The position numbers and the translations under genes were made by a program. From the NCBI GenBank assembly GCA_009746045.1, contig RPFO01000909.1, positions 1 through 64,000 of the forward strand: a stretch of 64,000 bases of DNA, written 5' to 3'. Of this stretch, positions 54,301-57,300 are shown one piece after another (position 1 is the first letter of the stretch; each line of letters begins with the position of its first letter). This stretch comes from Mesostigma viride. Lineage: Eukaryota; Streptophyta; Mesostigmatophyceae; Mesostigmatales; Mesostigmataceae. A model generated the notes under the pieces. The model had not been told where the DNA came from. It saw only the letters and a list, made by a program, of their open reading frames with translations, and did no database searches.

Positions 54301-57300
54301 CAGTCCTCGGCTCGTTTACCGCCTCCCATCATGCTTACTACCATGGCTGTACATGTACCACTGACCAAACGCAGCTCCAGTATGTAAACTAGCTCGTCCT
54401 CACCAAAGTGATTTTCGTTGCTAACATATTACATACTGTGCACACAACTGGTTGGCTGCTTGCATGCTGGTCAAGTCATCAGCTCTGCACCTGTGCATGC
54501 TTGATAGCAGGGGCGGAAAGCCTGCGTGACCGCACCGCACAGCGTAAATTGGATTAGGGGAAAATGTAGTGACTGCCATCGGCCATGGGCTGCACCACAA
54601 AAAGTAGCCGAATACGGACATAAATTACTGCGGGAACTTTCGTAGGGTACTTTTGATATACCCGTAAATACTGTACAGCGGGGGGGTGCCGTTCGTAACA
54701 GCACGGTGACCTGGCAGCACAATAAAATAATATTATTTAGTAGTACAGTGTATCGGATTTCTCTGAAAATAGTTTCTTATAATGGGCGAGAACGAACGCC
54801 GCAATCGAAGTGTTCCTGACGGCGGCAAAGATTACGTGGCACGCTCTTGGGGTTCCAGTTTCGCTGGCATGGCCGGCGACTAGGGCCGTTTTTAGCGGAT
54901 GATAATCAGTTTGGATTTTGTAACTGGGTGATTAGTTACGGGCAGTTTTCGTTGTTGTTCAGGCGGTTAAAAAGGTCGTATTTATAAGGCCTTTTAATTT
55001 TGTATGCTGGCCTGAAACTGCCTTTGATTGGCGACTAGTGTAGTTAAAAGTTCTGACTCGAATCATTTTGCTGACATTTTGTAGTTGCCGGTCTGACATT
55101 AGTTGTGTCAGTAAGGCTGGGATTTTTTTAGGGGCGTTGCCATGTAGCGTGTTGTGTCGTCTTTTTAGGGACCTTGCGAGGAAGGGGAAGGTCTTTTTTC
55201 TTGCATGACGCTGGGCACGCGTTGGCCGAGGCTATGGTGATGCAAGGAATGCCGACGCCTCCCCGGCCTTGTGCCCGCTCGGGCGCAGGGCTTAATTAAA
55301 TTAACAGACGGGCGGCAGCCCCTGAGCTTCCGGTTTCACGGAAGTCACAGCGGCTGCCAAGTGTCCGGACTGATTCTCACTTTGGTACTGGGTCCGGATG
55401 GTTGGGAATCTGCGCAGGAGGTTGGGCTGCGCTAGTGCAATATTCAGATCGAATATGAAGGGGAAGATCTGCTTGTCGAAACGGAAGGGCTGGCCTGCGT
55501 GGCAGCCTTGTACCTGAGGATGCTTGCGCTTCGGGTTAAGGTTCTGTGACGTTGGCTGGCCTGCCTTGGGCTGGTTCGTACCTGGGGATGCTTGCGCTCC
55601 GGGTTGGACTAGTTGAGGTCGTGGCGATAATTTTAATAAATTTAAAAATATTTTCACTCACACCGTTGTTTGGCGCGCGGTCTCGGCGCTGGGGGTGAGG
55701 GCTGATATGCGGCCTTGATTATATGCCTAACGGTAAATCTGTTAGCATGGTAGGTGCGGGGGTGTGCCCCCTGTCAAGGACGATGCTCTCCTAAAGGGGT
55801 CGTGGCGAAATATAGTGAGAAACGAAACTTGGGGTTTCGGTAATTGCTTGATCGCTGTGTCTTCTGCTTTGTCTTCGCAACAACAACAACTCCTGTTGCC
55901 GATCAGAGGGGAGGCCTTCTTTGGGGTCGGTGGCGGGCCCTGCAAATTCGCGGAATGTGGTTACCTATAACAGTGCATCAATGCATCCACAGCTGCTGGT
56001 GTTAAAACGGGGTCCATTGCGGCAGGGCATTCTCGATGGACACGCGGTCCTGGGAGAGAGGGGAGCGGCTTTGAGTCAGCCAGGCGTGGGGGAGTTGGGG
56101 ATTCGCAAACTTTGCTCGGAGAACTGCAAATGGCAGGGGACGCCATTTTGCTGTCCATTTTAAGCGACCACTTAATGTTTTCAATAAGAAGTTGGTGGAG
56201 TGGGAGCAATGGATACACGAATCGGATTTCTCTGAAAATAGTTTCTTATAATGGGCGAGAACGAACGCCGCAATCGAAGTGTTCCTGACGGCGGCAAAGA
56301 TTACGTGGCACGCTCTTGGGGTTCCAGTTTCGCTGGCATGGCCGGCGACTAGGGCCGTTTTTAGCGGATGATAATCAGTTTGGATTTTGTAACTGGGTGA
56401 TTAGTTACGGGCAGTTTTCGTTGTTGTTCAGGCGGTTAAAAAGGTCGTATTTATAAGGCCTTTTAATTTTGTATGCTGGCCTGAAACTGCCTTTGATTGG
56501 CGACTAGTGTAGTTAAAAGTTCTGACTCGAATCATTTTGCTGACATTTTGTAGTTGCCGGTCTGACATTAGTTGTGTCAGTAAGGCTGGGATTTTTTTAG
56601 GGGCGTTGCCATGTAGCGTGTTGTGTCGTCTTTTTAGGGACCTTGCGAGGAAGGGGAAGGTCTTTTTTCTTGGCCACCCACCCTCCCTGTGTTTTGTTGT
56701 CTTGGGGATTCGCAAACTTTGCTCCGAGAACTGCAAATGGCAGGGGACGCCATTTTGCTGTCCATTTTAAGCGACCACTTAATGTTTTCAATAAGAAGTT
56801 GGTGGAGTGGGAGCAATGGATACACGAATTTATATTACTACTACGATTAAAAGTATATCAGTATGACACCTACCAAGGCCCATGGCCGGGCAAGGAGGGA
56901 GACTGTCCCCTTCCGGTCGCCGGAAGCCAATAACCTACATGAATACATAAGCTACGCAGCTGTACATATAGGGCAAGAGAGCGAGCGGGGATTATCTGAG
57001 AGAGAACAACATTGATACTAGAGGGTAACAAACAATACATCTGGAGGCAGAGGAGAGGAATTCTGAGCAAGTCTGCCCAAGTTACGCGGACTTGAGAACC
57101 TCTCTCCTCTGCATATATAGTCTCTGCTTGTTCCTATTGGCGGCAGCGCCTCTTCCTTGCCCTCGCTCGGCGGTGCCCACTGTGGCTGACATGTGTTATT
57201 GCACCGCATGCGGGCCGACATTGTTGCGACCCATATGTATGCGGTCTAAATCCTTCCCCGGCCTGGTGCCAGGGCTGGCAGCGATGTTGCTGCCTGTCGT

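Follow-up and report, generated by a model that had tools for sequence, protein, structure and literature searches.

Family Y of the streptophyte Mesostigma viride is best explained as a gene-less, non-autonomous split direct repeat (SDR) retroelement of the tyrosine recombinase (YR) kind that YR retrotransposons elsewhere in the genome mobilise in trans. We put the probability of this reading at about 0.92. The DNA analysed, hereafter the window, is a stretch of 64,000 nucleotides (positions 1-64,000, forward strand, contig RPFO01000909.1 of assembly GCA_009746045.1). At 54752-56827 of the window, blocks of family Y follow the order A1-B-C1-A2-y-C2: a long unit, A-B-C, is directly followed by a short unit, A-y-C, in which a linker, y, stands in place of block B (Table 1). 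Its assignment to the SDR class rests on the C1|A2 junction, the concerted repeats, insertion without a clear target duplication and the identical layout of a coding element, L082. Family Y is filed as a non-autonomous derivative because it holds no open reading frame (ORF) of at least 120 aa and encodes no tyrosine recombinase.

Table 1. SDR elements, their parts and a related recombinase element in the window.
Feature	Position	Strand	Details
Family Y, A1 (left split direct repeat)	54752..55203	+	starts ATCGG; 452/452 identical to A2
Family Y, internal block B	55204..56094	+	
Family Y, C1	56095..56220	+	junction C1|A2 = CACGA|ATCGG
Family Y, A2	56221..56672	+	
Family Y, linker y	56673..56701	+	window copy with first C replaced by G
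Family Y, C2	56702..56827	+	right end ...CACGA
Family X SDR element	38295..40626	+	A1 38295-38895, C1 39752-39880, A2 39879-40472, C-run linker 40483-40497, C2 40498-40626
Family Z SDR element	59586..61636	+	A1 59586-59876, C1 60918-61107, A2 61108-61410, linker 61411-61437, C2 61438-61636
Older family Z SDR element	29823..32095	+	A1 29823-30124, C1 31378-31561, A2 31564-31883, linker 31884-31904 (C-run incomplete), C2 31905-32095
Family X A-block fragment	63205..63425	+	
Broken relative of coding YR element	48821..53436	-	84-97% to L082 in pieces

An initial annotation had described this plan at four window loci, and both a repeat scan and genome-wide copies bear it out. A direct-repeat scan of the whole window for the A1-B-C1-A2-y-C2 order returned those four loci and no more; mirror rows in its output are identical elements in opposite-strand reading. 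The end tolerances of the scan made it pass over L020 and L022, two complete Y copies from the genome-wide search. With the C-rich strand taken as plus, the long unit precedes the short unit at 4/4. C1 and C2 of the window's Y copy differ at a single position out of 128, and the C1|A2 junction sequence equals the 3′ end of the element fused to its own 5′ end. The absence of coding sequence, also remarked upon earlier, holds for block B, where the ORF list gives no frame of at least 120 aa starting with ATG, GTG or TTG; as far as seen, families Y, X, Z and W are all without genes. Elsewhere in the window, the minus strand at 12069-15544 holds LINE-like ORFs of 565 and 593 aa (reverse transcriptase and endonuclease, read by eye), and a C-type lectin domain (PF00059, E 7e-17) lies in an ORF at 28777-29400, again on the minus strand. 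Exons at 3242-3878 and 6017-6450 look carotenoid isomerase-like by eye, with no Pfam match for 3242-3829, and would point to a host that is photosynthetic.

The genome searched comprises 440 Mb in 2243 contigs. With the 2076-bp Y element as query, 40 of 267 first-look candidates were scored, and 25 of these are complete and have common ends. The ends are sharp (left ATCGG..., right ...CACGA), with the first A replaced by T in 4 of the 22 independent copies that are left when three complete copies with flanks in common with others are set aside. For family X, 23 of 54 match rows are complete (40 scored of 1193 first-look candidates); for family Z, the right end is reached unbroken in 36 of 40 main rows (40 scored of 1389). 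Among 40 scored A-y-C units, 34 lie after C1, two after a partial C1 and four stand alone. For the short unit, this scarcity of solo copies (4/40) goes against the condition named earlier as refuting, in which either unit would stand alone about as often as the other. The earlier proposal that both units arrive together was right.

At contigs C1, C2133 and C712, family X forms A-B-C-A-B-C arrays whose units overlap by one A length (592-594 bp); such arrays would be the expected reciprocal of solo formation through exchange between A copies. Eight X rows end at the A2 terminus, with other sequence in place of y-C2. In the three that were fetched, this is a minisatellite (L047), other sequence (L048) and, by eye, a Copia-like LTR (L049), and no coding partner was found in these copies. 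In family X, breaks seem to recur at the A2/linker border. Two further X copies, L060 and L064, have common flanks. These correspond to a Copia-like LTR (by eye) that is uninterrupted in L049 and L026, and the two copies may be one insertion that was later duplicated.

Four C-A-y-C loci without B (C1525, C280, C1:9463 and C1978:966) were considered as coding partners of family Y and are read as truncated or interrupted copies. Y sequence begins in them at about base 865, 1253, 1253 and 882, respectively, with different sequence upstream. Since C280 and C1:9463 have 4.4 kb of this upstream sequence in common at 99%, a variant internal Y region is possible. The C1525 stretch holds long repeat-like frames.

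The architecture had initially been called unrecognised after comparison with LTR, TRIM, LINE, SINE and TIR layouts only, and its class was missed. The SDR plan, A1-internal-B1-A2-B2, is published for YR retrotransposons; the passages cited describe it in Ngaro, PAT and VIPER elements and describe DIRS elements without target duplications (PMC4157794, PMC8547959, PMC6681497, PMC8969392, PMC9210276). The Ngaro-type order is given there as A1-[ORFs]-B1A2B2 (PMC8547959, PMC9210276, PMC3783388). The annotation's suggestion of a non-autonomous retroelement with an overlapping terminal redundancy fits this plan well. Its alternative, a wholly new element type with template switching outside the known classes, draws on the fact that Y's own partner was not found, and is barely credible: the SDR plan is in print, and the genome also holds L082, a coding YR element that agrees in plan and linker and contradicts the strong form of that idea. 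An LTR retrotransposon or TRIM was ruled out, as there are neither terminal TG..CA repeats nor a target duplication of several base pairs.

The repeats within a copy appear to have been copied from one template, as the initial annotation had supposed by analogy with LTRs. Across the 22 independent Y copies, A1 and A2 differ by a mean of 2.2 events inside a copy vs 5.4 between copies, and C1 and C2 by 1.1 vs 2.3; in a permutation test (20000), no permutation gave a sum as low as that observed, for A and for C alike. The own partner is nearest, ties included, for A in 17/22 copies and for C in only 9/22. Seventeen A columns vary in at least two Y copies, and in 12 of them, some being neighbours that belong to one event, every carrier has the variant in A1 and A2 alike; columns 1 (the boundary base), 46, 111, 302 and 455 fall short of this. 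Of 13 such columns in C, only 34 and 47 are fully two-sided, and column 11 is so in 10/12 carriers. The ten one-sided C columns are 1-7 (beside the linker), 28, 130 and 137 (the first flanking base), and all except 28 lie at most eight columns from a border. In four young X copies, A1 and A2 differ by 2, 0, 8 and 1 events, against 1-16 between copies; one of them, L080, is no closer internally than between copies, and the other three fit. The window's own X copy, with 43 A1/A2 events, is old. Taken by family and block, the signal of a single template is clear for A, weaker for C and mixed for X.

Insertion in family Y is conservative, without a clear target duplication. In the flanks of the 22 copies, no duplication of 2-6 bp was found in at least three copies and at no less than twice the shuffled expectation. 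The sites are nonetheless biased: A at +1 (21 copies; this base may come from the element), T at +2 (15), +8 (17) and +9 (21), and A at -1 (16). This preference resembles the element's own junction, CACGA|ATCGGATTT. When the flanks of 25 Y and 10 X copies were joined and compared with the collected part of the genome sequence, empty relatives emerged for four Y and two X sites, in seven comparisons altogether. Two Y copies are informative about the crossover. In L019, the left boundary carries the target's T at base 1 and the right boundary the element's A; in L027, base 2 is diagnostic, being a T from the element at the left boundary and an A from the target at the right. From these boundary bases, the exchange is placed between element bases 1 and 2 (A|TCGG), with no target bases added. 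Such junctions are expected if a recombinase recombines a circle with its target. A mismatch to the empty site at base 2 in L016, and an empty relative of L012 that is mismatched at two bases left of the site, may reflect divergence. At the X sites, two or three A's are common to the target and the element ends, so that a 2-bp duplication is inseparable from junction homology there; the Y-type TT bias is absent from 11 X copies.

Duplication-free insertion between two bases is also what a Helitron-like rolling-circle element, or a head-to-tail dimer of A-B-C and A-y-C, would produce. Families Y, X and W do begin with TC after an A, T stands at +2 of the Y 3′ flank in 15/22 copies, and a clear target duplication is lacking. 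The 5′ ends of X and Z also fold well (4 and 0 of 200 shuffles are as stable), and second-type Helitrons, in the passage cited, have hairpins at both ends (PMC8969392). Even so, this origin is very unlikely. No CTRR end is present in X, Y or Z, family Z starts with TTTTTGAGC rather than a 5′ TC, and neither the 3′ ends (z -0.19 for Y, -0.63 for X and 0.92 for Z) nor the Y 5′ end (z 0.06) fold above chance. Single units should prevail among such elements, yet a full or partial C1 precedes 36/40 short units, independent units would not have inherited variants in common, and the coding relative is a YR element. A Helitron proper was ruled out on ends, hairpins and target sites.

The window itself holds a broken relative of that coding element (Table 1), which keeps A1 and one C, has about 800 bp of foreign sequence inside and shows no A2-y-C2; a Pfam search of its pieces gave no recombinase, reverse transcriptase (RT) or RNase H match. 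When its recombinase piece was used as query, 150 of 1606 first-look candidates were scored, and more than ten of the 150 contain open frames of about 990-1020 aa. One of them, L082, has the full SDR layout: A1 (397-607) matches A2 (5296-5506) at 99.5%, C1 (5102-5298) matches C2 (5531-5727) at 100%, and a linker, CCCACCCGCCCACCC, sits at 5507. Its frames are 369 and 995 aa long. The longer, ORF2 (1919-4903), matches Phage_integrase (PF00589) with E 2.8e-6 and 27.7 bits against a cut-off of 27.1, and its C-terminal piece alone scores 31.0 bits. No methyltransferase family is among the ORF2 profile matches (a weak match could be missed), no Pfam RT or RNase H model matched L082, and a PDB sequence search with ORF2 gave no match; RT- and RNase-H-like motifs are, on our own reading of the translation by eye, probably present. 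Between the RNase-H-like and recombinase regions lies DVHPNPGP, which resembles a ribosome-skipping motif of the 2A type. The start of A in L082 (TTGGTGAGCTATGCTCATTTTAT) is closer to that of family Z than to that of Y, and the 150 scored candidates yielded no coding element that ends like Y, X or W. Another recombinase copy, L083 (C1635:2020560-2021960), has a 3′ end 99% like that of L082 and a long TTCA repeat in place of the C-run linker; many near-identical 167-aa recombinase frames may be copies of an L083-type derivative.

The recombinase alone could in principle account for such elements, if family Y were a Crypton-like DNA element mobilised by a YR, with gene conversion keeping A1 equal to A2 and C1 to C2. 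The integration evidence does bear on the recombinase step only, and the case for reverse transcription comes from layout and kinship, with no RT profile match. Against this stand the many copies (first-look candidates: Y 267, X 1193, Z 1389, W 855), the RT- and RNase-H-like motifs that we read in the coding relative, and a layout that is that of YR retrotransposons. We regard the Crypton-like origin as less probable still than the rolling-circle one and retain the SDR retroelement reading.

By the domain content of its coding relative, family Y is filed as Ngaro-like, a class set by layout and domains rather than by phylogeny. Like Ngaro elements as the cited accounts present them, it has the repeat order and solo AB units, and L082 has a Phage_integrase-type recombinase without a methyltransferase match. 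Unlike them, families Y, X, Z and W are gene-less as far as seen, a C-run linker lies between A2 and C2, and the RT and RNase H of L082 are without profile confirmation. VIPER and its derivative SIRE in trypanosomatids are similar in their A1...B1-A2-B2 order, and SIRE, described in Trypanosoma cruzi as A2, about 30 unique bp and B2 of VIPER, corresponds to the A-y-C form; SIRE is the short unit only in that description, whereas the gene-less elements here mostly have the full SDR layout (PMC6681497). PAT, Toc and Kangaroo elements also have split direct repeats and are reported from green algae, but their defining methyltransferase domain, as given in the passages cited, was not detected in L082 (PMC4157794, PMC8226300). 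PAT-like DIRS elements are reported from Chlamydomonas relatives (PMC8226300) and Ngaro families from a brown alga (PMC12477816), again in the passages cited.

A (CCCN)3CCC run forms y in X, Y, Z and L082, and is intact in 23/25 complete Y copies. The C blocks of X, Y, Z, W and L082 have a common core, CA..TA.TGT..T.A. Used as a search marker, the linker led to family W, in which 40/40 scored copies (855 first-look candidates) are full length at 99-100% identity; the SDR repeat order was checked on one complete copy and is present. One of the gene-less families is very young. A linker shared across families is new here, as judged from the open-access literature searched, and may be a new functional part. 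At about position 4620 of L037, on the minus strand, lies a solitary C-run linker (CCCACCCGCCCTCCC) whose surroundings resemble those of Y's linker, and it probably marks a further SDR family. Tetranucleotide C/G-run arrays, like an expanded linker motif, lie at 22122-22493, 35285-35469, 36714-36876 and 41381-41680 of the window.

These observations can be arranged into a tentative cycle. An RNA spanning about B-C1-A2-y, its ends being part of the proposal, would be reverse transcribed. C1-A2 would then serve as an LTR-like template for the missing ends and yield a circle, B-[CA]-y-[CA], which the YR would cross into a target at the C|A of the second [CA]. Solo units, whether A-y-C or A-B-C, would be deletions between A1 and A2 or between C1 and C2. 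Through the C-run linker, the first cDNA strand would gain a G-quadruplex-capable tract; the linker marks the A2/C2 border, where template switching may be expected. It is conceivable, though we would sooner bet against it, that the linker is a working cis element whose G-quadruplex-capable tract stalls the polymerase and steers the circle-closing template jump, with [C-A] and the linker together nearly enough for the cycle. If this were true, failed jumps would account for the X copies that break off at the A2/linker border, and the linker would be a sequence hallmark for finding hidden non-autonomous families, as with family W.

The SDR class is already known, though little studied; several gene-less families, the base-level crossover evidence and the C-run linker give it a useful new form. 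Young, high-copy, gene-less families with comparative evidence for single-template repeats, base-level crossover points from empty sites and a shared linker motif are here found together in one genome. As minimal substrates, the gene-less families point to the sequences that may be required for such a cycle. Similar layouts may sit unnoticed wherever repeat annotation is limited to LTRs, TIRs and poly(A) tails.
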